Shown: positions 22,894 through 38,077 of the stretch, one piece after another | Layout: each line of letters opens with the position of its first letter | Numbering within the stretch: the stretch's first letter is position 1 | DNA from: Alphaproteobacteria bacterium MedPE-SWcel | Lineage (GTDB): Bacteria; Pseudomonadota; Alphaproteobacteria; Rhodobacterales; Rhodobacteraceae | Length of the DNA stretch: 64,000 nucleotides | Assembly (NCBI GenBank): GCA_001874255.1 | Contig: MPDC01000011.1 | Coordinates: forward strand, 1 to 64,000 | Direction of reading: 5' to 3' | Notes under the pieces: model-generated | Told to the model about the DNA's origin: nothing | What the model saw: the letters and a program-made list of their open reading frames with translations, nothing else | Database searches by the model: none | Translations under genes and position numbers: made by a program

Positions 22894-24018
22894 ATGGCAA
22901 ACGCGACCCAACCCACGGCCGCTTCCGACGAACGCATCAAGGAAATTTCCGCGTTTCGAAAAGCGATGATCCGTCCCGAGCTGGGCGGCATCGTCGGAAC
23001 CATCGCCGTGTTCACTTTCTTTTTGTTATTCGCTTTCGACAGCGGCATGTTCAACAGCCAGGGCATCATGAACTGGTCGATTGTTTCGGCGCAATTCATG
23101 GTCATCGCGGTCGGTGCCTGCCTTTTGATGATCGCGGGCGAGTTCGACCTCTCCGTGGGCTCGATGATCGGGTTCGCGGGCATGATGATCGCAATTTTCT
23201 CGGTCACATACGGCTGGCCCGTGTGGCTCGCCATCATCACGACTTTCGTGCTCTGCACGGCGATCGGCGGGTTCAACGGCTGGATCGTCATCCGCACCGG
23301 GCTTCCCAGCTTTATCGTGACGCTGGCCTTCCTGTTCATCCTGCGCGGCTTCACCATCTTTCTGCCCCAGGTGATCGAACGCAAGACGATCATCGGCGGT
23401 ATCCTCGACGTGGCCGAAGGCGACTGGCTGGCGCCGATCTTTGGCGGCAAGATCCTTGGCGGCGTCTTCACCTGGCTGGGGGATGCGGGCCTTATCGCCA
23501 CCTTCGAGCGCGGCACCAAACAGGGCCAGCCCGTGGTGGACGGCATTCCGATGCTGATCGTCTGGGCCATTGTGCTGATCCTCTTTGGCCATGCGCTGCT
23601 GACCAAGACCAAGTTCGGCAACTGGATCTTTGCCGCCGGGGGCGACGCCGAAGCGGCGCGCAATTCCGGCGTCCCGGTCAACCGGGTCAAGATCCTGATG
23701 TTCATGTTCACCGCCTTCTGCGCGACGGTATTCGCCGTCTGCCAGGTGATGGAGTTCGGCTCTGCCGGGGCCGACCGGGGGCTGCTCAAGGAATTCGAGG
23801 CGATCATCGCGGTGGTCATCGGCGGCGCGCTGCTCACTGGCGGCTATGGGTCCGTGCTCGGGGCGGCGCTTGGCGCGTTGATCTTCGGTGTCGTGCAACA
23901 GGGGCTGTTCTTTGCCGGGGTCGAAAGCTCGCTGTTCCGGGTCTTCCTGGGCGTGATCCTGCTGGGGGCCGTGATCCTGAACACCTACATCCGCCGCATC
24001 ATCACCGGAGAGCGTTGA
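22894..24018 (+). CDS. Sugar/inositol ABC transporter permease
   Basis: 374-residue multi-spanning membrane protein of the BPD_transp_2 family; GEFDLSVGSMIGFAG matches the family signature region. It forms the membrane channel with the binding protein upstream and the ATPase downstream, and is one base from the latter's start. ATG 22894 follows GGGGAG. Confidence 0.9.
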   Translation: MANATQPTAASDERIKEISAFRKAMIRPELGGIVGTIAVFTFFLLFAFDSGMFNSQGIMNWSIVSAQFMVIAVGACLLMIAGEFDLSVGSMIGFAGMMIAIFSVTYGWPVWLAIITTFVLCTAIGGFNGWIVIRTGLPSFIVTLAFLFILRGFTIFLPQVIERKTIIGGILDVAEGDWLAPIFGGKILGGVFTWLGDAGLIATFERGTKQGQPVVDGIPMLIVWAIVLILFGHALLTKTKFGNWIFAAGGDAEAARNSGVPVNRVKILMFMFTAFCATVFAVCQVMEFGSAGADRGLLKEFEAIIAVVIGGALLTGGYGSVLGAALGALIFGVVQQGLFFAGVESSLFRVFLGVILLGAVILNTYIRRIITGER

Positions 24019-27102: not shown

Positions 27103-28050
27103 TCAGATCGACCATCGAACCCCGGTGGCCTGTTCGGACAGGTCCCACAGCCGGGTCATCACCGGCTTGTCATGGGCATGGGGGTCCAGCGTGCCCGTTC
27201 CGACCGGGCCGCCGGTTTGCATCCAGCCGGTGGGGCCATGCAGGGCCCGTTGCTGCAGGCCGTCCTCGGTGGCGCACATGACCTCCGGGTAGGCCCCCTT
27301 GTTGGCGGATTGCACGAGGGGGGTCTTGGTCATCAGCCACCATGCGAACCGTGTCATCCTCCCGCCGCTGGTGCTGATCAACGAGGTCGCCGAGGCACCG
27401 GGGTGGCAGACGTAGACCTCGACACTCTTGCCCGCCGCCTTGACGCGGTCCTGCAACTCATAGGCAAACATCATCTGTGCCAGCTTCGACTGGCTGTAGG
27501 CCGCATTGGCGCTGTAGGCGGTGTCCCAGTTCATGTCGTCGAACTGGATGGTCCGGATCCCCATCTTGTAGCCAAGGCTGGCGACGACGACGATCCGGCC
27601 TTGCGAGGCCTCGATCCGGTCGAAGAGCAGGCCAGAGAGCGCGAAATGGCCATAGTGGTTGGTGCCCAACTGGCTTTCAAAACCGTCCTTGGTGAGGTTC
27701 TGATCAGGCACCTGGGCGATCGCCGCATTGCAGATCAGGGCGTCGATCTGCGGCACGGTTTTCAGCACCTCCTCTGACGCGGCGCGCACAGAGGCCAGGT
27801 CCGCGAGATCCATGCGGATGAAGCTCACCTCCGCGCCTGGGCCGAATTCCTGTTTCAGGCCCTGCACGGCGGCGGCTGATTTTCCGGCGCTGCGGTTCAG
27901 CATCACCACCTTTGCCGCCTTCGACAGAAGGATGCGCGCGGCCTGAAACCCCGCGCCTGCATTGGCGCCGGTGATGACAAAGGTCTTGCCTGCGAGAGTG
28001 CCGAGACGTTCGGGTGTCCAGCCCTTGGGGCCGAATGCTGTATCTGCCAT
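27103..28050 (-). CDS. Short-chain dehydrogenase/reductase family oxidoreductase
   Basis: 315 residues, classical-to-extended SDR. Cofactor motif TGANAGAGF (about residues 27-35), NAAIA-type ICNAAIAQV, catalytic YSQSK. The length and AGWW-like C-terminus resemble protochlorophyllide reductase-like SDRs of unknown function. Divergent from the AraC-family gene (167 bp between starts) and followed by the MDR gene, so the AraC protein probably controls both. Substrate not recognisable. Confidence 0.85.
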   Translation of the reverse strand: MADTAFGPKGWTPERLGTLAGKTFVITGANAGAGFQAARILLSKAAKVVMLNRSAGKSAAAVQGLKQEFGPGAEVSFIRMDLADLASVRAASEEVLKTVPQIDALICNAAIAQVPDQNLTKDGFESQLGTNHYGHFALSGLLFDRIEASQGRIVVVASLGYKMGIRTIQFDDMNWDTAYSANAAYSQSKLAQMMFAYELQDRVKAAGKSVEVYVCHPGASATSLISTSGGRMTRFAWWLMTKTPLVQSANKGAYPEVMCATEDGLQQRALHGPTGWMQTGGPVGTGTLDPHAHDKPVMTRLWDLSEQATGVRWSI

Positions 28051-28217
28051 GGTCTGATCCTCTCATGGGGGCGCACGGGACAGTGCACTTTCATCGCTGC
28101 GTTGAGATCGGAGATAAATGGCGTGCTGCGCCAAAAACAGGCGGGATCGTCGCGAATACTTGCCCGATTGTATCACGTCGGTTGCAATGGGCCTCTCGGC
28201 TATTCAGGCTGAGGCGC

Positions 28218-29120
28218 ATGAGCAAAGAGCAGATCAGACAGATCATCGAGGCCCGGATGACCAGCGACGGCATGGTCGCCACCGGTATCAAAGGTATCCA
28301 GTTGTTTCGTGCGACCGAGGCGATGCCCTGCGCTCCGGCGGTCTATGAACCCTGCGTCATCGCCATTGTCAGCGGCGCCAAGGAGGCGGTTCTGGACGGG
28401 CAGCGCCATGCCTATGACAGCAGTCGTTACCTGTGCTGTCCGATGTCGATGCCGGTCGAGGCCGGCACGCCCACCGCATCGCCGCAGACCCCGCTGCTTG
28501 GGGTCTATATCGCGCTCGATCCGCGCCTGATGACGGAAATCAGCATCGAGATGGACGCCGCCGGGTGCCGTATCCCCGAGACCAAGGGCCAAGCGCCGGG
28601 CATTCGTCTGGCCCGCTGGAACGACACCTTTCTGGACGCGCTGTTGCGGCTGGTGCAGCTGAGCGGATCTCTGGCGGACCGGGCGGTTCTTGGCGATGCG
28701 CGGCTGCGCGAACTTTACTATGCCATCCTCAAGGGCGAAGCGGGCCAGTTCGCCCGCCACGCCTTTGCGCCGGGCAATCCCATTGCGCGGTCTATCGCGG
28801 ATCTGTCGTCGAACCTCGGAGAGCCGATGTCGATCAATGACATGGCCAGCCGCGTCGGCATGAGCCGCGCCGTGTTTCACCGCAAGTTCAAACAGGCCAC
28901 AACGATGTCACCCATCCAGTTCGTCAAATCCATGCGCCTGAACCACGCCGCGATGAAGATCGCAGGCGGCATGACCGTCTCCGAGGCGGCGCTGGACGTG
29001 GGCTATATCAGCCCCTCGCAATTCAGCCGCGAGTTCAAACGCCTGTACGGGCAGTCGCCCCGGCAATGGGGTGACACCCGGACCATGGCGGCAGCCACAG
29101 CCCGACAGGAGGCCACATGA
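28218..29120 (+). CDS. AraC-family transcriptional regulator
   Basis: 300 residues: an N-terminal AraC_N-like effector domain (MPCAPAVYEPCVIAIVSGAK) and two C-terminal helix-turn-helix units (MSINDMASRVGMSRAVFHRKF and VSEAALDVGYISPSQFSREF). ATG 28218 is preceded by GAGG. The gene is divergent from the SDR/MDR pair and overlaps dddQ by 4 bp (ATGA), so the regulator and DMSP lyase are one transcription unit. It may respond to DMSP, acrylate or an aldehyde derived from them; this is inference. Confidence 0.88.
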   Translation: MSKEQIRQIIEARMTSDGMVATGIKGIQLFRATEAMPCAPAVYEPCVIAIVSGAKEAVLDGQRHAYDSSRYLCCPMSMPVEAGTPTASPQTPLLGVYIALDPRLMTEISIEMDAAGCRIPETKGQAPGIRLARWNDTFLDALLRLVQLSGSLADRAVLGDARLRELYYAILKGEAGQFARHAFAPGNPIARSIADLSSNLGEPMSINDMASRVGMSRAVFHRKFKQATTMSPIQFVKSMRLNHAAMKIAGGMTVSEAALDVGYISPSQFSREFKRLYGQSPRQWGDTRTMAAATARQEAT

Positions 29121-29719
29121 CGACCCGACCACATGCCCTGCAGGCCTTTGTCTCGGCCTTGCAAAACGCCCTCAGTTCCCGCGCAGGCCTGCCCGAAGAG
29201 CAGACAATGCTGTCCCGGTCATTCGAGGCTCTGGCCCGGCCGCGCGACTCAAGGCAGGCCGCCGGGCAGCGCTTGCCCGCGTGTCGGCACCTCGACAGCA
29301 TCGCAGCAAGAGCGCAGAGTTTCCCTGAAGACCTCCACCGGCTCGCGCGGCTGTTCTTTGCACTCGAACCATCGCTGGTCTGGAGACAGCGCAGCGGGTC
29401 GATGGACGGGGCGAGTGACAGCTTTGCAGAGGGGCATGCGAATGCCCTGATCGTTGGACCCGGAGGACTGGAGCGGCGCACGGACGTGTCGGTCGGCGTT
29501 ACCATCCTGGCGCCTCATGTTCGCTATCCGGACCATACGCACCCGCCCGAAGAAACCTACCTCATCCTCAGTCCGGGTCGGTTCAGCCACGATCTGCAGG
29601 AGGCGGTCGAGCCGGGGCTGGGCGGGACCTTCTACAATGCCCCCGGCATCGTACATTCCATGGAATCCGGCAATGAACCGCTTTTCGCCTTCTGGATCCT
29701 TGGATCGCAGGAGCGCTGA
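29117..29719 (+). CDS. dddQ: Dimethylsulfoniopropionate lyase DddQ
   Basis: 200-residue cupin protein. The metal-site pattern H142-x3-E146-x-Y148-x31-H180 (within YPDHTHPPEETY and APGIVHSM) has exactly the spacing of the His, Glu, Tyr and His ligands described for DddQ. DddQ cleaves DMSP to dimethyl sulfide and acrylate. No signal peptide, so cytoplasmic. It is translationally coupled to the AraC gene upstream. No acrylate-handling gene (acuI, prpE, dmdA) is in the window, though the adjacent SDR and MDR enzymes could act on downstream C3 compounds. Confidence 0.87.
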   Translation: MTTRPHALQAFVSALQNALSSRAGLPEEQTMLSRSFEALARPRDSRQAAGQRLPACRHLDSIAARAQSFPEDLHRLARLFFALEPSLVWRQRSGSMDGASDSFAEGHANALIVGPGGLERRTDVSVGVTILAPHVRYPDHTHPPEETYLILSPGRFSHDLQEAVEPGLGGTFYNAPGIVHSMESGNEPLFAFWILGSQER

Positions 29720-30184
29720 GACCGACAAGCCGGGTGCTGAACGGCACCGGCATTTGCGGCAGCAGTCCGTCCCGCAGCCAGGGATGCCAGTGCGGTATTG
29801 ACCCGATCCGGGCTCCGGCCTCTTGCATGACCGGTCTCAGCAGGTCGGTCTCCACGCCCAGGGTCGCGGCAATCGCGTCGAAGTCGGGCGCTCCGCCGGG
29901 GCCGCCGCATCGATCCAGATCCTCCGGCACCGGTCGCCAAGATCAAGCCGCAGACTGCGCTCAGCAGACAGACGGCGCCTGCATGGGGATGCCGGTCAAT
30001 CTGCGGCATCGTCTGTCTGTCGGGGCTGATCTGCTGGTGCTTTCAGTCCGACCGAGGTGTCCAACGGCCGTTCAGGACCCAGTCGAGGGTCAGAACACCT
30101 CCGCCCTGATGAGAATTTTTGAGTTTTATACTCACAAAAGTTAGGAGTAAGCTGCAGCGACCCGTATCAAACCGAGATGGCCCG
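29720..30184. other. 465-bp intergenic region between dddQ and the LysR gene
   Basis: No intact gene recognised. The minus strand from about 30009 to 29730 shows a signal-peptide-like stretch (GAVCLLSAVCGLILATGAG) and, in another frame, a PDFDAIAATLGVETD motif that looks like a helical unit of small secreted proteins, suggesting a frameshifted remnant. Near the right end is TGAGTTTTATACTCA (30120-30134). Confidence 0.5.
30120..30134. promoter_or_regulatory. Candidate LysR operator
   Basis: TGAGTTTTATACTCA is a 5-bp inverted repeat around TTTAT within an A/T-rich segment that contrasts with the GC-rich surroundings. It lies about 50 bp upstream of the LysR-family start, a usual place for autoregulatory binding. 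Flanking T and A runs extend the symmetry imperfectly. Confidence 0.4.
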
Positions 30185-31162
30185 ATGCCCCGCCTGAACC
30201 CCTCCAAGGATCTCAGCCTCAAGTCGCTGGAACTGTTTCAGACCTGCGCCAGAGATGGCTCGCTGCAGGCGGCAGCCCGGGAGGCCGGGCTGACGGTGAG
30301 CACGGTGTCGCACCATCTGCGGTCTCTCGAAGAGCATCTCGGGGTTGAGTTGTTCAATCACGCCCGCAGGCCGATGGTGCTGACGCCCAAGGGCCAGACC
30401 TTTCTGCGCAATATCGAAGAGGCGCTGCTCGCGATCCGCAAGGCCAAGGCCGAGGCCTCCGCCGGCAGCGTCGCCGAGGCCAGCTATCTGCGGCTTGGCA
30501 CAATCGTGGATTTCGACAGCGACATCATCCCGGAACTGGCCGTGTTCCTCTCGGCCAGCATGCCGACCTGCGATTTCATGTATCACACCGACTCGAGCCA
30601 CGAGATTATCGAGATGCTGCGCAACCGCCAGCTCGACATGGGCATTACCACTGCGCCGGACGAACAGCTGAGCGATCTCCGGGACCGGCCGATGCTGCGC
30701 GATCCGTTTGTGGCGGTGCTGCCGCTGGTCACCGAACAATCCCTGAGCGACATCGTCGAGGGGCGCACCAAGCTGCCATTCCTGCGTTTTTCCGGTAACC
30801 TGATGATCGCCCGCCAGATCGAGACGCAATTGCGGCGGATCGGGGTCACGTCGCCGCATCGGTTCGAATGCAGCAATAATCAGACCCTGATGGCCATGAC
30901 CGCCGCCGGAGCCGGTTGGACAATCACGACGCCGCTGCTGTTCCTGCGCGCGAAGCAGTTTCATTCGCGGCTGCGAATGCAGCAATTTCTGCCCGGCAAA
31001 AACTTTGCGCGCACCCTGACGCTGGTGACAACGCCGGATTGCTCGCGCTCGGTGATCGAACTGGTCGACAGTAAAATGCGCCGCCTGATCCAGGATCATG
31101 CATTGACCCCGTTTCACCGCAGTGATCCCTGGCTCGCCGACAGTTTCAAGCTGGTCGACTGA
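30185..31162 (+). CDS. LysR-family transcriptional regulator
   Basis: 325 residues. An N-terminal winged helix-turn-helix (LKSLELFQTCARDGSLQAAA, then LTVSTVSHHLRSLEEHLG) is followed by a LysR substrate-binding domain. ATG 30185 is chosen because it gives the normal short lead before the HTH. It is on the same strand as, and 214 bp before, the FAD/GcvT gene, so it probably regulates the cuyA-containing cluster downstream. Confidence 0.88.
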   Translation: MPRLNPSKDLSLKSLELFQTCARDGSLQAAAREAGLTVSTVSHHLRSLEEHLGVELFNHARRPMVLTPKGQTFLRNIEEALLAIRKAKAEASAGSVAEASYLRLGTIVDFDSDIIPELAVFLSASMPTCDFMYHTDSSHEIIEMLRNRQLDMGITTAPDEQLSDLRDRPMLRDPFVAVLPLVTEQSLSDIVEGRTKLPFLRFSGNLMIARQIETQLRRIGVTSPHRFECSNNQTLMAMTAAGAGWTITTPLLFLRAKQFHSRLRMQQFLPGKNFARTLTLVTTPDCSRSVIELVDSKMRRLIQDHALTPFHRSDPWLADSFKLVD

Positions 31163-31376: not shown

Positions 31377-33812
31377 ATGAAATCTCGGACCAAGGTTGTA
31401 GTGATCGGTGGCGGCATCGCCGGTTGTTCGACGCTCTATCATTTGACCAAGGAAGGTTGGAGCGATGTGGTTCTGGTCGAGCGCAACGAGTTGACCTCGG
31501 GCACGACCTGGCATTCGGCGGCGCAGGTGACGAATTTCGGCGGCAACCAGACGATGGTGGGGCTGAAGACGCATTCGATAAACCTGTACAAGGAACTGTC
31601 CGAGAACCCCGAATATCCGATCAATTACCACCACGCCGATGGCGGCATCCGGCTGGCCAATACCGAAGCCCAGATGATGGGCTACCGCCACTTCGCGTCG
31701 ATGGCGCGCGGCATGGGGGTCGATTTTGAGGTCATCGATGCCGAGGAATGCGCCCGCCGCCACCCGCTGATTTCGACCACCAACCTGCTGGGCGGGCTCT
31801 GGGACCCGCTGGACGGGGATATCGACCCGGCGCAGCTGTGTCAGGCGCTGGCGTATCATGCCCGCAAGGCAGGCGCCGAGGTCTATCGCGAAACCCCTGT
31901 CACCGCGCTGACCCAGCACAGGGATGACACCTGGACCGTACACACGGAAAAGGGCGATATCGACTGCGATATCGTCGTCAATGCCTGTGGCTATCGTGTC
32001 AACGAGGTTGGCGCGATGATGGGAGTGCATCACCCGGTCGCCTCGATGGAGCATCAGTATTTCCTGACCGAGGACATCCCGGCGATTGCCGAGGCGGGCC
32101 ACCGCATGCCGCTTCTGCGCTGCCCGATCTCGGATTACTACAGCCGCCAGGAAAAGGGGGGCCTGCTGGTGGGGTTCTATGAACAGGACTGCAAGACATG
32201 GGGCATGGACGGGATCGACCCGAATTTTGTCAACGCGCTCTGCCCCGATGATCTCGATCGTGTCATGGATGTGTTGGAAGGCGCCTTTGAACGGATGCCC
32301 GCGCTGGCCGAGACCGGCATCCGGTCGATCGTCAACGGCCCGATCACCTATACCATCGACGGCGCGCCGCTGGTGGGCCCGATCCCGGGCAAGCGCAACG
32401 CCTTCTGTATCATCGGCCTGCGGGCCGGTCTGGGCGAGGGTGGCGGCCACGGTTGGTTGCTCGCACAGCAGATCGTGCATGGCGAGGCCTGCTATGACAC
32501 CTGGGTGATCGATCCGCGCCGTTTCACCGGCCATGCCAACGTCGAGTTGACCGCGTTGAAATCCATCGAGGATTATCAGAATGAATTCCGGTTCCATTTC
32601 CCTCACGAACACCGCCCGGCGGGGCGCCCGGCCAAGACAACGCCGCTGACCCCGATCCTGGCCGCCGAAGGCGCCGAGTTCACCGTGGTCAACGGCTGGG
32701 AGCGGGTCGACTACATCAAGCCCGCGCCCGACTTCCACCCATCGCTGACGTTCAATTTCGACGAGGCCTTCGATCTGGTCGCCGCCGAGGTGAAGAATGT
32801 GCAGGAGAACGTCGGACTCTGCGAGGTCAACGGTTTCAATCGCTTCGAGATCACCGGCGCCGACCGGCACAGCTTTCTGGATCGGATGTTCTGCGGCGCG
32901 GTCCCCAAACGCGACGGCCGCGTGGGGCTGGGATACCTCTTGAACCATCACGGCATGGTCAAGGGCGAAGCAACAGTGGCCAACCTGCCGCCGTCCGATC
33001 GCGGTCCGGCGCGGGTCTGGTACGGCTCGGCGGCGGCGAGCGAGTATCACGACATGGACTGGCTCAAACTGCATCTGCGCGAGGACGAGGACGTGCAGAT
33101 CCGCAGCCTGACAAACGACCAGACCATCCTCGTGCTGGCCGGGCCCAAGGCGCGCGATGTGCTGACTGCCTGTTCGCGCGGCGACTGGTCGCGCGAGGCC
33201 TTTCCCTGGCTCAGCGCGCGCGAATGTTTCATCGGTTTCGCTCCGGCCACGGTGCTGGGCGTCAGCTTCTCGGGCGAATTGGCCTATGAGATCCACGTCC
33301 CCAATGCCGCGCTCTATGCGGCCTGGCTGGCGCTCAGAAAGGCAGGCGAGGCGCATGGGCTGAAGCTCTTTGGCGCCAGGGCCGTCGACTCCATGCGGAT
33401 GGAAAAAGGCTTCTTGCACTGGAAGGCCGATCTGTTGACAGATTTCGACCCTTTCGAGACCGCGCTCGACCGTTTCGTGAAGCCCGAAAAGGGTGACTTC
33501 ATCGGCAAGGCCGCGCTGCTCAAGCGCATCGAGGCAGGTCCGCGCAAATCGCTGGTTACGCTGCAGGTCGCCGCCACCGATGCGCCCGCCCATGGCGGTG
33601 CCTCGCTGATGCGGGACGGCCGGGTCGTTGGCACCATCACCTCGGGCGATTGGGGGCACCGGCTGGGCCTCAACCTCGCCTATGCCTATGTCGAGCCCGC
33701 CCTGGCCGCCCCCGGCACGAAGATCGACCTTGATCATTATGGCGATATTGTCGGTACTGAAGTGATCGCGCCTTCGCCATACGATCCCGAATACAGTCGC
33801 ATGCGGGCATGA
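31377..33812 (+). CDS. FAD-dependent oxidoreductase fused to GcvT domain (dimethylglycine/sarcosine dehydrogenase-like)
   Basis: 811 residues. The N-terminal DAO flavin domain has GGGIAG (11-16) and GTTWHSAAQV, whose His46 matches the covalent FAD-attachment histidine of dimethylglycine dehydrogenase. The C-terminal half is a GcvT-type folate-binding aminomethyltransferase domain (FNRFEITGADRHSF onward, then the GcvT C-terminal barrel). Such enzymes oxidise N-methyl groups and pass the C1 unit to tetrahydrofolate. ATG 31377 follows CGGAGG. Its place before cuyA suggests an N-methylated or amino-sulfonate substrate, but ordinary dimethylglycine or sarcosine remains possible. Confidence 0.82.
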   Translation: MKSRTKVVVIGGGIAGCSTLYHLTKEGWSDVVLVERNELTSGTTWHSAAQVTNFGGNQTMVGLKTHSINLYKELSENPEYPINYHHADGGIRLANTEAQMMGYRHFASMARGMGVDFEVIDAEECARRHPLISTTNLLGGLWDPLDGDIDPAQLCQALAYHARKAGAEVYRETPVTALTQHRDDTWTVHTEKGDIDCDIVVNACGYRVNEVGAMMGVHHPVASMEHQYFLTEDIPAIAEAGHRMPLLRCPISDYYSRQEKGGLLVGFYEQDCKTWGMDGIDPNFVNALCPDDLDRVMDVLEGAFERMPALAETGIRSIVNGPITYTIDGAPLVGPIPGKRNAFCIIGLRAGLGEGGGHGWLLAQQIVHGEACYDTWVIDPRRFTGHANVELTALKSIEDYQNEFRFHFPHEHRPAGRPAKTTPLTPILAAEGAEFTVVNGWERVDYIKPAPDFHPSLTFNFDEAFDLVAAEVKNVQENVGLCEVNGFNRFEITGADRHSFLDRMFCGAVPKRDGRVGLGYLLNHHGMVKGEATVANLPPSDRGPARVWYGSAAASEYHDMDWLKLHLREDEDVQIRSLTNDQTILVLAGPKARDVLTACSRGDWSREAFPWLSARECFIGFAPATVLGVSFSGELAYEIHVPNAALYAAWLALRKAGEAHGLKLFGARAVDSMRMEKGFLHWKADLLTDFDPFETALDRFVKPEKGDFIGKAALLKRIEAGPRKSLVTLQVAATDAPAHGGASLMRDGRVVGTITSGDWGHRLGLNLAYAYVEPALAAPGTKIDLDHYGDIVGTEVIAPSPYDPEYSRMRA

Positions 33813-33875
33813 TGACACGGCACTGTCGCTGCAACGCCCGTCGCTCACTGGCCCATATTTACCAAGGATACTGAT

Positions 33876-34889
33876 ATGCATTTGTCCCGTTTTCCCCGCG
33901 TCCACCTCGCCCATCTGCCTACGCCGCTGGAGCATATGAACCGGCTGTCCAGGGAACTGGGCACTGAAATCTGGATCAAACGCGATGATTGCACCGGCAT
34001 GTCGACTGGCGGCAACAAGACCCGGAAGCTGGAATTCCTGATGGCCGAGGCCATCGAACAGGGCGCCGACATGGTCATGACGCAGGGCGCGACCCAGACC
34101 AACCATGGGCGCCAGACCGCGGCCTACGCGGCCAAACTGGGGCTCGGTTGCCACATTCTTCTGGAGGACCGCACCGGCTATCAGGATGGCAATTACAACA
34201 CCAACGGCAACGTGCTGCTGGATCATCTGCATGGCGCCACGACCGAGAAATTTCCGGGCGGCCACGACATGGCGGGCGAAATGGAGCGCGCCGCCGAGAA
34301 AAAGCGCGCAGAGGGCCACAAGGTCTATGTCATTCCGGGGGGTGGCTCGAACCCGACCGGGGCGCTGGGCTATGTCAATTGCGCTTTCGAGCTGCTGAAT
34401 CAGGTCAACAGCTCCGGCATGAAGATCGACCGGCTGGTCCATGCGACCGGCTCTTCCGGGACGCAGGCCGGTCTGGTCACCGGCATGTGCGCGATGAATG
34501 CACAGATCCCGATCCTGGGCATCGGCACCCGCGCACCGCAGCCGAAGCAGGAACAGATGGTCTATGATCTGGCCTGCCGAACCGCCGACAAACTGGGCTG
34601 CGCCGGCGTCGTCAAGCGCGAGGATGTCATCGCCAATACGGATTACGTCGGCGAAGGCTACGGCCTGCCCACCGACAGCGGCATCGAGGCGATCCGGATG
34701 TTTGCCGAACTCGAAGGCATCCTGCTCGATCCCTGTTATTCCGCCAAAGGGGCCGCAGGCCTGATCGATCTGGCCCGCAAGGGCGCCTTCAAGGGCGAAC
34801 GCATCGTCTTTCTCCATACCGGAGGGGTGGCGGCGCTGGCGGGCTATGACTTTGCGTTCGACAACACCGACCGCTGGGTCCACCTCTGA
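33876..34889 (+). CDS. cuyA: L-cysteate sulfo-lyase (D-cysteine desulfhydrase family)
   Basis: 337-residue PLP enzyme of the ACC deaminase/D-cysteine desulfhydrase fold. [10 protein letters not shown] (residues 45-54) holds the PLP-binding lysine; [16 protein letters not shown] and the segment beginning [15 protein letters not shown] bind phosphate and cofactor. The N-terminus [19 protein letters not shown] is very like the CuyA proteins I know from roseobacters. CuyA cleaves L-cysteate to pyruvate, sulfite and ammonium. Neighbouring HpsN-type dehydrogenase and racemase genes support sulfonate use; D-cysteine desulfhydrase is the alternative. Confidence 0.8.
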
Positions 34890-34903
34890 GAAGGCTCCCG
34901 CCC

Positions 34904-36097
34904 GTGGCACGCAGATTTACCGGCACCTTTACGCAACAAGACGCGCTCCCCGCAGAGGCCATAGCGGCCGCGGTGGCGGTGCTGCAATCGGGCCGGCTGC
35001 ACCGCTACAACCTCGCCGCCGACGAGGTCGGCGAGGTGGCGCATCTGGAAGCGGAATATCGCGACTGGCAAGGCTGTGACTATTGCCTTGCCGTCACCTC
35101 TGGCGGTCAGGCGCTGCAAATCGCCCTGCGCGCCTGCGGCGTCTCTGCAGGCGATCCTGTCCTGACCAACGGCTTCACGCTCGCCCCGGTCCCCGGCGCG
35201 ATCCGGGCGGTCGGGGGTCAGCCAGTCCTGGTGGAGATCGACCAGAACCTGCGTCTCGATCCGCAGGATCTGCAAACCAGGATCGAGAGTTCGGGCGCAA
35301 AGGTCCTGCTGCTCTCGCATATGCGCGGGCATCTGTGCGACATGGACCGGGTGATGCAGATCTGCGACCGCGCCGGTGTCACGGTGATCGAGGATTGCGC
35401 CCATACGATGGGCGCAGGCTGGGCCGGCAGGCGGTCGGGAAACTTCGGCAAGGTGGCGTGCTTTTCGACCCAGACCTACAAGCACATGAACTCTGGCGAA
35501 GGCGGGTTTCTGACCACGAATGATGCCGGGGTCGCCGCCCGGGCCACCATCCTGTCGGGCAGCTATATGCTGTATGACCGCCACGGCGCGGGGCCCGATC
35601 CGCAGGCCTTTGACCAAGCCCGCTACGAGATGCCGAACTGCTCGGCCCGGATGGATGCGGTGCGCGCGGCCATCCTGCGCCCGCAACTGGCGCATCTGGA
35701 AGAGAATATCGCCCGCTGGAACGCCCGCTATGCGGTGGTCGAACGGGGCCTGCAGGCGCACAATCTGATCGCGACAATCGACCTGCCGTCGCAGGAAAGC
35801 CATGTCGGCTCATCCATCCAGTTCCGCCTGCCGGAGTTTTCCGCCGCCCAGTGCCGCGGGGTGATTGCCGCAGCCGCGCAGCGTGGGGTGGAATTGAAAT
35901 GGTTCGGCGCCCCGGAGCCTGCAGGCTTTACCTCCTCGCATCAGTCGTGGCGCTATGTCACCGCGCAAGAGCTGCCACAGACCGACCGCATCATGGCGAC
36001 GCTGTTCGACATGCGCCTGCCGTTCAGGTTTTCCGAAGCGGACTGTGCTCTCATTGCCGAATTGATCGGCGAAGCCGTGATGGAGGTCGCAGCATGA
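34904..36097 (+). CDS. DegT/DnrJ/EryC1/StrS-family PLP aminotransferase
   Basis: 397 residues; start GTG 34904, 14 bp after cuyA. Visible are the N-terminal YNLAADEVGEVAHLEAEY segment, VTSGGQALQIAL (cofactor phosphate), VIEDCAHTMGA, and STQTYKHMNSGEGG with Lys193 as internal aldimine. Members normally aminate keto-sugars, but no nucleotide-sugar genes occur here; instead it is locked between cuyA and a racemase by short spacing and a 4-bp overlap. Action on a C3 sulfonate (for example sulfopyruvate or an oxo-propanesulfonate) is a reasonable but unproven idea. Confidence 0.8.
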   Translation: MARRFTGTFTQQDALPAEAIAAAVAVLQSGRLHRYNLAADEVGEVAHLEAEYRDWQGCDYCLAVTSGGQALQIALRACGVSAGDPVLTNGFTLAPVPGAIRAVGGQPVLVEIDQNLRLDPQDLQTRIESSGAKVLLLSHMRGHLCDMDRVMQICDRAGVTVIEDCAHTMGAGWAGRRSGNFGKVACFSTQTYKHMNSGEGGFLTTNDAGVAARATILSGSYMLYDRHGAGPDPQAFDQARYEMPNCSARMDAVRAAILRPQLAHLEENIARWNARYAVVERGLQAHNLIATIDLPSQESHVGSSIQFRLPEFSAAQCRGVIAAAAQRGVELKWFGAPEPAGFTSSHQSWRYVTAQELPQTDRIMATLFDMRLPFRFSEADCALIAELIGEAVMEVAA

Positions 36098-36795
36098 GCC
36101 GCAGGGTCGTGGGTGTTCTGGGCGGCATGGGGCCCGAGGCGACAATCCTCCTGCAGCAGCGCGTTCTGGCCATGGTCCGTGCCACGGACGATGCCGATCA
36201 CCTGCCGCTTCTGATTGACATGAATCCGCAGGTGCCGTCGCGCATTGCGCATCTGATCGACGGCAGCGGCCCCGACCCTGCGCCGGTCTTGGCCGAGATG
36301 GCGCAGCGGCTGGAGGCAGCCGGAGCCACTGCGCTCGCCATGCCCTGCAACACGGCGCATCACTACGCGCCGCAGATCAAGGTGGCGGTCTCCATCCCGT
36401 TTCTGAACATGGTGGATCTGGCCGTGGCCCGGGCCGCGGACTGCCTCGCCCCGGGCGCCGCCATCGGCCTGCTTGCCTCGCCGGCAGTGCGTCTGGCCGG
36501 TGTGTTCGACGCGGCGCTTTCTCGCGCGGGGCTCAATGCGATCTGGCCCTCGGATATGGACCGGATGCTCGCCGCGATCCGGTCGATCAAGGCGCGCGGC
36601 CCGACCCCCAAGGCGCAAGACATCCTGGCCGCCGCCGCCGCCGAAATGGCGCAGGGCGGCGCATCGCTGCTGTGTGTCGCCTGCTCCGAATTTTCCCTGC
36701 TCGCCCCCGGTCTGCCCGCCCCCGTCCCGATCATCGACACGATCGATGCCCTGGCCGACGCGATCCACCTCCATTCCCAGATGAAACAGAGTTGA
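36094..36795 (+). CDS. Aspartate/glutamate racemase family protein (possible cysteate racemase)
   Basis: 233 residues. The VGVLGGMGPEAT N-terminus and two catalytic cysteines, Cys85 in PCNTAHH and Cys197 in CVACSEFSLL, mark the two-base cofactor-independent Asp/Glu racemase superfamily. ATG 36094 overlaps the aminotransferase stop. Cysteate is a sulfonate analogue of aspartate, so in an operon with cuyA this enzyme may interconvert D- and L-cysteate. Plain aspartate racemase activity is the alternative. Confidence 0.8.
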   Translation: MSRRVVGVLGGMGPEATILLQQRVLAMVRATDDADHLPLLIDMNPQVPSRIAHLIDGSGPDPAPVLAEMAQRLEAAGATALAMPCNTAHHYAPQIKVAVSIPFLNMVDLAVARAADCLAPGAAIGLLASPAVRLAGVFDAALSRAGLNAIWPSDMDRMLAAIRSIKARGPTPKAQDILAAAAAEMAQGGASLLCVACSEFSLLAPGLPAPVPIIDTIDALADAIHLHSQMKQS

Positions 36796-36799
36796 ACCC

Positions 36800-38077
36800 A
36801 TGGCCATCACATATCTGAAGAAAGCGAAGCCCCGCCCCGCGGTCGAACACAAGGACCTGCGGGATATTGTGGCCGCCATGCTGGCCAATATCGATCAGGA
36901 CGGCGAGGCGGCGGTGCGCAACTATGCCCGCAAGCTCGACCACTGGACCGGCGACATCGTGGTGTCACAGGCGGCCCGCGCTGCTGCCTGCGCCCGCGTG
37001 CCCGAACAGCTCAAGGATGATATCCGCTTTGCGCATGGGAACATCCGCCGCTTTGCCGAGGCCCAAAAGGCGACAATGGGCGAATGCGAGGTCGAGGTCA
37101 TGCCCGGGTTGATCGCCGGGCAAAAACAGATCCCCGTCTCGAGTGCGGGGTGCTACGTGCCGGGCGGGCGCTACAGCCACATTGCCAGCGCGTTGATGAC
37201 GGTCACCACGGCCAAGGTCGCGGGTGTGCCACATATCACCGCCTGTTCGCCGACCCGGCCCGAGGTCGGCATTCCCGATGCCATCGTCTTTGCCATGGAC
37301 CTCTGCGGCGCGGATCTGATCCTCAATCTCGGCGGGGTGCAGGGGGTTGCGGCCATGTCCAAGGGGCTCTTTGGCGGCCGTCCCGCGGATATCCTCGTGG
37401 GCCCCGGCAACAGCTACGTGGCGGAGGCCAAGCGGATGCTCTTTGGCGAGGTGGGGATCGACATGTTTGCCGGCCCCACAGATTCGCTTGTGGTGGCCGA
37501 TCACACCGCCGATCCCGATACCGTGGCCTGGGATCTGGTCAGCCAGGCAGAGCATGGGGCCGACAGTCCGGTCTGGCTGGTGGCCACCGACAGGGCGCTG
37601 GCCGATACCGTCATGACCCGTGTCTCGGCGATGATCGACAGTCTGCCCGAACCCAATGCCACCGCCGCCCGTGTTGCCTGGGTCGAGCGCGCCGAGGTCA
37701 TCCTGTGCGACAGTCGGGAAGAGGCAGCCCAAGTGGCCGACCGCTACGCGCCCGAGCACCTTCAGGTCCAGGCCGAAGACCTCGAGTGGTGGCTGGACCG
37801 GCTCTCGGCCTATGGCTCGTTGTTTCTGGGCAAGGAGACGACAGTGGCGTTTGGCGACAAGACCTCGGGTCCCAATCACGTGCTGCCCACCAGCGGCGCT
37901 GCGCGCTATACCGGCGGTCTTTCGGTGCATAAGTTTACCAAGACGGTGACCTGGCAACGCTGCAACGCGGCGGCCTCGCATGAACTGGCGCTGCGCACCG
38001 CGCGGATCAGCCGGACCGAAGGGATGGAAGGCCATGCCCGCTCTGCGGAACTGCGCCTCCTGCGGCAGCCGGCCTGA
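36800..38077 (+). CDS. hpsN: Histidinol dehydrogenase-family protein, probable sulfopropanediol 3-dehydrogenase (HpsN-like)
   Basis: 425 residues of the HisD fold. Motifs include PVSSAGCYVPGGRYSHIAS, GVQGVAAM, VGPGNSYVAEAK, GPTDSLVVAD and the zinc-ligand region SQAEHGADSP. The N-terminus MAITYLKKA and the overall sequence resemble HpsN, which oxidises (R)-2,3-dihydroxypropane-1-sulfonate to sulfolactate in two NAD-dependent steps. No other his gene is near, and the operon contains cuyA, arguing against histidine synthesis. The substrate could be another C3 sulfonate alcohol such as cysteinolate. Confidence 0.75.
   Translation: MAITYLKKAKPRPAVEHKDLRDIVAAMLANIDQDGEAAVRNYARKLDHWTGDIVVSQAARAAACARVPEQLKDDIRFAHGNIRRFAEAQKATMGECEVEVMPGLIAGQKQIPVSSAGCYVPGGRYSHIASALMTVTTAKVAGVPHITACSPTRPEVGIPDAIVFAMDLCGADLILNLGGVQGVAAMSKGLFGGRPADILVGPGNSYVAEAKRMLFGEVGIDMFAGPTDSLVVADHTADPDTVAWDLVSQAEHGADSPVWLVATDRALADTVMTRVSAMIDSLPEPNATAARVAWVERAEVILCDSREEAAQVADRYAPEHLQVQAEDLEWWLDRLSAYGSLFLGKETTVAFGDKTSGPNHVLPTSGAARYTGGLSVHKFTKTVTWQRCNAAASHELALRTARISRTEGMEGHARSAELRLLRQPA

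Follow-up and report, generated by a model that had tools for sequence, protein, structure and literature searches.

A recurrent operon of CuyA, CuyB and an HpsN-like dehydrogenase as a candidate pathway for cysteinolate degradation

A cluster of five closely packed genes is described here from Alphaproteobacteria bacterium MedPE-SWcel (Rhodobacteraceae), located on a stretch of 64,000 nucleotides of contig MPDC01000011.1 (the window). Behind a LysR-type regulator, it encodes an FAD/GcvT fusion protein (FAD, flavin adenine dinucleotide), the sulfo-lyase CuyA, a DegT-type aminotransferase, a CuyB-type racemase and an HpsN-like dehydrogenase (Table 1). Gene content, enzyme families, recurrence of the operon and the existence of two HpsN groups are observed; from these we infer every substrate and reaction direction given below. 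Cysteinolate (2-amino-3-hydroxypropane-1-sulfonate), either unmodified or N-methylated, is moderately likely to be the compound that the operon degrades. The enzyme families are known and their combination is recurrent; the substrate is likely new. A literature search returned no described bacterial pathway or genes for cysteinolate breakdown; a 2022 review (Burchill and Williams) may propose one. The proximity of CuyA to HpsN is already known (PMC11382572). Microalgae contain cysteinolic acid in abundance (PMC8703288), and a roseobacter aminolipid carries it as the head group (PMC11631085).

Table 1 Genes of the cluster and its upstream neighbours (positions in the window)
Gene product	Position	Strand	Basis and remarks
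LysR-type regulator	30185..31162	+	PF00126/PF03466; first gene of the cluster; start of the open reading frame possible at 30119
FAD/GcvT fusion protein (811 aa), dimethylglycine-dehydrogenase-like	31377..33812	+	DAO, FAO_M, GCV_T, GCV_T_C
CuyA, D-cysteate sulfo-lyase (pyridoxal phosphate)	33876..34889	+	NF052482, 518.5 bits (cut-off 450)
DegT/DnrJ-type aminotransferase, accessory	34904..36097	+	GTG start; PF01041, 1.2e-61
CuyB-type cysteate racemase	36094..36795	+	NF052483, 274.1 bits (cut-off 190)
HpsN-like dehydrogenase; proposed cysteinolate dehydrogenase (alcohol to acid, NAD+)	36800..38077	+	PF00815; GRYSH motif; place in tree
AraC-type regulator	28014..29120		
Dimethylsulfoniopropionate (DMSP)-lyase-family gene	29117..29719		PF16867, 1.4e-46

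The arrangement of five closely packed genes behind a LysR regulator, reported in a preliminary description of this DNA, is borne out by the coordinates, the reading frames and family scans. All five frames are open and are separated by 63, 14, -4 and 4 bases, and the LysR gene ends 214 bases upstream. Gaps of this size between the five genes appear compatible with a single transcript. In a promoter and terminator scan, signals were no more frequent than in shuffled sequence. Downstream, the cluster is followed by an EAL gene in convergent orientation. CuyA, whose NCBIfam name is D-cysteate sulfo-lyase, is the sole match in the window's genome (G000) at E<=1e-60. The racemase passes the cut-off for 'cysteate racemase CuyB' and is therefore more than a generic Asp/Glu racemase. 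Its residues Cys85 and Cys197 are invariant in an alignment of 14 sequences; we take them to be the two conserved cysteines of cofactor-independent racemases, with a catalytic role by family. The same gene order is found again in Primorskyibacter sedentarius and Sulfitobacter brevis, among others, and relatives of the LysR regulator with 71-87% identity head the cluster in loci L042, L057, L077, L082 and L083. Leisingera methylohalidivorans and Ruegeria halocynthiae, both culturable, likewise carry the cluster.

To characterize related operons, the best 80 of 355 CuyB loci were analysed; these were chosen by CuyB, so that its presence is built in. Further loci from genomes of the family and from plasmids were added. 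Genes were counted per locus by tblastn with fixed identity limits, which copies more divergent than the limits would escape; this approach was adopted because the gene caller overlooked some genes (e.g. CuyA in L050). HpsN is present in 45 of the 80 loci. All of these hold CuyA, 26 hold DegT, 22 FAD/GcvT, 6 an MttB-family gene and 12 a PF03601-type exporter. HpsO, HpsP, SuyA, SuyB, TRAP (tripartite ATP-independent periplasmic) transporter, ComD and ComE genes were found in none of the 45 at the set identity limits. Both DegT and FAD/GcvT are missing from 13, nine of which encode a taurine-class binding protein. CuyA is also found in 29 of the 35 CuyB loci without HpsN, 12 of which are short contigs. 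Across 295 sampled genomes of the family (CuyB E<=1e-35, HpsN E<=1e-110, CuyA E<=1e-60), CuyB is present in 59 and HpsN in 168, and among the matches listed HpsN lies within 6 kb of at least 25 of 61 CuyB genes. Together with the recurring gene order, this makes a chance grouping unlikely, and chance is not a good account of the five-gene cluster.

Known operons for the degradation of dihydroxypropanesulfonate (DHPS) combine hpsNOP with SuyAB, SlcD-ComDE-Xsc or CuyA (R. pomeroyi, C. pinatubonensis; PMC11131964, PMC11382572), CuyA being one of three end routes there (PMC11382572). They share with the present cluster the HpsN-type Zn/NAD+ dehydrogenase that converts a C3 alcohol to an acid and its GRY-A/S-H motif, and differ from the 45 CuyB-HpsN loci by the genes that are missing from the latter and by an HpsN on another branch. 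A separate set of 22 HpsN loci (L080, L081, L162-L181) was selected because these were probably of the DHPS type or held a second HpsN copy. HpsO or HpsP is present in 17 of them, along with TRAP genes in 13, SlcD in 12, ComDE in 10 and SuyAB in 4, and neither CuyA nor CuyB occurs in any of the 17 within the 11-17 kb examined for each. The remaining five lack HpsO and HpsP, and three of these carry CuyA and CuyB. In the published set of 272 HpsNs with hpsO and hpsP nearby, CuyA lies within 10 open reading frames in 34 (PMC11382572). The contexts of HpsN thus overlap and are not exclusive beyond the present sample. As that set required hpsO and hpsP nearby, the HpsN type of the present cluster falls outside it. 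HpsO and HpsP are absent from the window's cluster; genome-wide, the best HpsP match reaches 32%, and the search for HpsO and ComDE was not extended to the whole genome.

The HpsN-like protein is the only HpsN in the window's genome. Its best relatives of solved structure are the (R)-DHPS dehydrogenase 8wwe (554 bits) and CpHpsN (489 bits), and histidinol dehydrogenases (HisD) reach at most 253 bits. It carries the HpsN motif G-R-Y-S-H and Lys354, and the catalytic residues Glu319-His320 and Asp353 are conserved (318, 319 and 352 in CpHpsN). A GRY-A/S-H motif with a sulfonate-binding His marks HpsN (PMC11382572), and the motif His and the Lys are present in 18/18 DHPS-type and 64/64 CuyA-linked rows of the alignment. 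The only other PF00815 gene of the genome is a separate HisD (555 bits), which reads GLASY where the HpsN-like protein reads GRYSH. Two positions distinguish most rows of the two kinds: position 322 is Thr in 18/18 DHPS-type rows and Gln or His in 63/64 CuyA-linked rows, and position 358 is Thr in 17/18 and Pro in 60/64, respectively. The 64 rows exclude L158, which sits near the DHPS-type rows in the tree, and include L091, whose 'hpsOP' label rests on a 33% short-chain dehydrogenase/reductase and which was treated as CuyA-linked in both the residue comparison and the constrained-tree test. Active-site residues as proof of cysteinolate versus DHPS were rejected, since CpHpsN, an R-DHPS enzyme, has the same Pro and loop.

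In the HpsN tree (91 rows), a branch with 90/87 support sets 17 DHPS-operon HpsNs, 8wwe and HisD apart from the CuyA-linked HpsNs, and the starred branch (99/99) makes the same split without L158. The CuyA side of the 90/87 branch also includes six HpsNs from other contexts, the copy of genome G293 and CpHpsN. The HpsN-like protein of the window thus does not group with the DHPS-operon HpsNs or 8wwe; the exception is CpHpsN, whose branch is long (1.82 changes per site). A constrained tree that groups the 71 CuyA-side rows without CpHpsN is equally good (p-AU 0.51, likelihood 0.89 higher). Two genomes, G193 (L044, L162) and G286 (L070, L164), encode one HpsN of each kind, and this speaks against an identical function of the two. 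The HpsN of G241 contains an internal stop. A 599-aa gene near some HpsNs was noted and set aside, the single copy scanned (in L173) being LepA.

The CuyB loci with and without HpsN also differ in their importers. A taurine-class ABC (ATP-binding cassette) binding protein is encoded in 27/45 loci with HpsN and in 0/35 without (22/35 versus 0/23 where both flanks are complete); the Fisher p-values of 1e-9 for all loci and 3e-7 for full flanks are overstated because related loci are not independent. The first importer kind is TauABC-like and lies inside the operon, with a binding protein above the taurine equivalog cut-off in L064. The second lies beside the operon and its binding protein is below this cut-off; a relative in G007 has Xsc, a MocR-type regulator and an aminotransferase as neighbours and thus belongs to a taurine cluster. 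An aminosulfonate importer adjoining HpsN is what cysteinolate as the substrate would require. DHPS operons, in contrast, import by TRAP transporters (13/17 loci). In the window's genome, a 71% relative of the second binding protein is found with an ATPase and a permease among housekeeping genes on contig C23, and a 61% relative of the exporter lies beside Xsc on contig C8. A CuyA-HpsN pair in L061 (G070) is accompanied by a taurine-type ABC importer and followed by an AtuA-family gene, with CuyB on another contig.

Compared with the known degradation of cysteate by CuyA and CuyB, with which it shares the sulfo-lyase and the racemase, the cluster is extended by the alcohol dehydrogenase, in many cases by DegT and FAD/GcvT, and by the taurine-class importer in relatives. 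A PF03601-type exporter occurs in 17/80 CuyB loci, and 35/80 have neither HpsN nor a taurine-class importer. In L119, the one such locus scanned, CuyA-CuyB without HpsN lies near a ProXWV-like ABC importer, and L110, L123 and L131 are alike by gene lengths; this arrangement is perhaps one of plain cysteate uptake and degradation.

HisD oxidizes an amino alcohol to an amino acid in two NAD+-dependent steps, and HpsN does likewise on a hydroxy sulfonate. CpHpsN was crystallised with L-cysteate, which takes the pose of the product R-sulfolactate and inhibits with a half-maximal concentration (IC50) of 2.4 mM; it shows no activity on histidinol (PMC11382572). RpHpsN is weakly active on this amino alcohol, 691-fold less efficiently than on DHPS (PMC11131964). 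Given the chemistry of HisD and HpsN, the binding of cysteate by CpHpsN and the histidinol activity of RpHpsN, oxidation of cysteinolate would require no new chemistry.

In the proposed pathway, the HpsN-like enzyme would oxidize the CH2OH group of cysteinolate in two NAD+-dependent steps to give cysteate, as HisD does with histidinol, the sulfonate being held by the His of the GRYSH motif and by Lys354. R-cysteinolate would yield R-, i.e. L-cysteate, by the naming rules. CuyB would interconvert L- and D-cysteate, and CuyA would cleave D-cysteate to pyruvate, sulfite and ammonium. It has been reported that CuyA prefers D-cysteate and that CuyB interconverts L and D (PMC11382572); with L-cysteate as the product of HpsN, this preference would account for the presence of CuyB alongside HpsN and CuyA. 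In the preliminary description, the racemase was to turn D- into L-cysteate for an L-cleaving CuyA. This order of enantiomers had to be reversed, as the preference of CuyA makes it more likely that the racemase works from L to D. The remainder of the earlier cysteinolate route, with cysteinolate as the substrate of the HpsN-like enzyme and cysteate passed on to the racemase and CuyA, finds indirect support in the operon partners and importers. FAD/GcvT might provide an optional first step that transfers N-methyl groups to tetrahydrofolate. DegT, likewise optional, might let a further substrate into the pathway, perhaps the opposite enantiomer or the ketone 3-hydroxy-2-oxopropanesulfonate, which is reported in algae together with cysteinolic acid (PMC11131964). 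Import in this strain would depend on a transporter encoded elsewhere, e.g. the taurine-type ABC system on contig C23. HpsN, CuyB and CuyA form a closed set for cysteinolate only; with DHPS as the substrate, the route would additionally call for a sulfolactate dehydrogenase and an aminotransferase as a minimum.

Several observations weigh against cysteinolate as the substrate. The cluster of the window contains neither an importer nor an exporter gene, as the preliminary description had already stated for sulfite exporters and sulfonate transporters, and the binding protein, ATPase and permease genes of a taurine/aminosulfonate ABC importer were not found between positions 24001 and 46000; both missing functions are present in relatives (ABC binding protein in 27/45, PF03601-type exporter in 12/45 loci). 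The sulfonate-binding and catalytic residues are common to CuyA-linked HpsNs and DHPS enzymes, and CpHpsN carries the GDKTSGPNH loop of the CuyA-linked group and falls on their side in the free tree. G293, a genome of the same genus, keeps LysR, FAD/GcvT and HpsN at 87-91% (HpsN 91%), and searches for CuyA (E<=1e-60) and CuyB (E<=1e-35) found neither; this points either to decay of the cluster in G293 or to a use of HpsN that does not depend on CuyA. At this locus (L057, G293:C86), a gap of about 200 bases between the kept genes marks the position that CuyA-DegT-CuyB occupy in the window. Finally, HpsN with CuyA has been read as a DHPS route via sulfopyruvate and L-cysteate (PMC11382572, published in 2024).

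Such a DHPS/sulfolactate route is rather unlikely for the present operon. HpsN would convert R-DHPS to R-sulfolactate, a dehydrogenase encoded elsewhere would yield sulfopyruvate, DegT would form L-cysteate, and CuyB and CuyA would finish. The family and residues of HpsN fit R-DHPS, DegT is an aminotransferase by family, SlcD-like dehydrogenases at 35-50% are encoded in the window's genome, and CuyA near hpsNOP is assigned to the DHPS route in PMC11382572 (hpsNOP and cuyA in 51/272 organisms, 34 with CuyA as a neighbour), where the aminotransferase and CuyB of this route were left unidentified in R. pomeroyi. Against these points stand the lack of HpsO, HpsP and TRAP genes in all 45 CuyB-HpsN loci, the 19/45 loci in which DegT was not seen, the mainly sugar aminotransferases among the solved relatives of DegT, and the taurine class of the importers beside the operon. 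Since the genome encodes no close HpsP or SuyB (best matches 32% each), the DHPS branch has little support in it. The role that the preliminary description had foreseen for DegT, joining sulfopropanediol or sulfopyruvate to the same line, is weakened by the same two findings, the loci without DegT and the lack of a close HpsP or SuyB. An improbable alternative divides the cluster into two units, with CuyA-CuyB for scavenged cysteate, and FAD/GcvT with the HpsN-like enzyme for another, perhaps N-methylated, amino alcohol sulfonate that bypasses cysteate. It would suit G293, which retains FAD/GcvT and HpsN without CuyA, the 29/35 CuyB loci that hold CuyA without HpsN (among them L119 with its ProXWV-like importer) and G269, where LysR, MttB and FAD/GcvT (matched over 62% of its length) occur without an adjoining CuyA. 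However, HpsN lies at most 6 kb from CuyB in at least 25/61 family cases and is accompanied by no FAD/GcvT in 23/45 loci, which indicates that it associates with CuyA/CuyB rather than with FAD/GcvT. Very improbable is a histidinol-related or generic amino acid role with a HisD paralogue, an aspartate racemase and a D-cysteine desulfhydrase, as automatic annotation would have it. The NCBIfam hisD domain model does score 427 bits with the HpsN-like protein, and database records name such genes hisD, D-cysteine desulfhydrase and amino acid racemase, but the genome has a separate HisD, the HpsN motif replaces that of HisD, and CuyA and CuyB both exceed their equivalog cut-offs.

Within the favoured cysteinolate pathway, DegT looks accessory, as it was not seen in 19/45 HpsN-bearing CuyB loci. 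In 29 of the 30 loci with all three genes, the window included, its position is between those of CuyA and CuyB. DegT matches occur in 251/295 family genomes, mostly as one gene of ~55-62% identity. The paralogue of G293 (L055) is located by glmS, glmU and a phosphoglycolate-phosphatase-like gene, and neighbours of like length were noted for the paralogues in L047 (G000, contig C1), L051, L053 and L054. A housekeeping role for the DegT of the cluster was considered and rejected; a quick tree groups the paralogues (99) apart from the cluster DegTs, among which the deeper forks are weak. Two close DegTs (G071, G160) belong to genomes without CuyA at E<=1e-60. In one of these, L045 (G160), a cluster-type DegT is divergent from taurine-type ABC importer genes, an arrangement that might reflect a role of DegT in converting an aminosulfonate taken up by the cell.

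The FAD/GcvT protein is, judging from its sequence, a candidate N-demethylase with a tetrahydrofolate site. It shares domain order and length with dimethylglycine/sarcosine dehydrogenases, its best solved relative being dimethylglycine dehydrogenase 5l46 (E 1.1e-146), and differs from them in being part of a sulfonate operon. In the HpsN tree, a single branch of 32 rows (100/99) contains 22 of the 23 rows labelled with FAD/GcvT. Quaternary amines are demethylated by enzymes of the MttB family. An MttB-family gene adjoins FAD/GcvT in five of the six HpsN-bearing CuyB loci that contain one; Leisingera methylohalidivorans is among the species with this pair. The N-demethylation that the preliminary description had considered for FAD/GcvT agrees with this pairing. 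With such chemistry beside FAD/GcvT, an N-methylated cysteinolate is a fair but tentative guess for the substrate of the cluster. More specifically, it is tentatively suggested, as a possibility, that the full cluster serves an undescribed N-methylated or betaine form of cysteinolate from algae, in which case MttB (in some relatives) and FAD/GcvT would demethylate it, the HpsN-like enzyme would yield cysteate, and CuyB and CuyA would release sulfite; plain CuyA-CuyB-HpsN clusters would serve cysteinolate itself. MttB next to FAD/GcvT with LysR close by was observed in L049 (G269), L077, L078, L085, L100, L102, L105, L109 and L153, and the two genes possibly form an N-demethylation module for quaternary amines that occurs with or without the CuyA operon. 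An MttB orthologue in the window's genome was ruled out, as the best of its three PF06253 genes has only 40% identity to the cluster-type MttB.

Just upstream of the LysR gene, a DMSP-lyase-family gene follows an AraC-type regulator (Table 1). This neighbourhood may point to the handling of two algal sulfur compounds by adjacent genes.

The CuyA-linked HpsN group, annotated as hisD in database records, is a likely marker gene with which cysteinolate turnover could be tested and mapped. Such a marker would separate the turnover of cysteinolate from that of DHPS, and it carries the warning that not every hpsN homologue should be counted as DHPS degradation.

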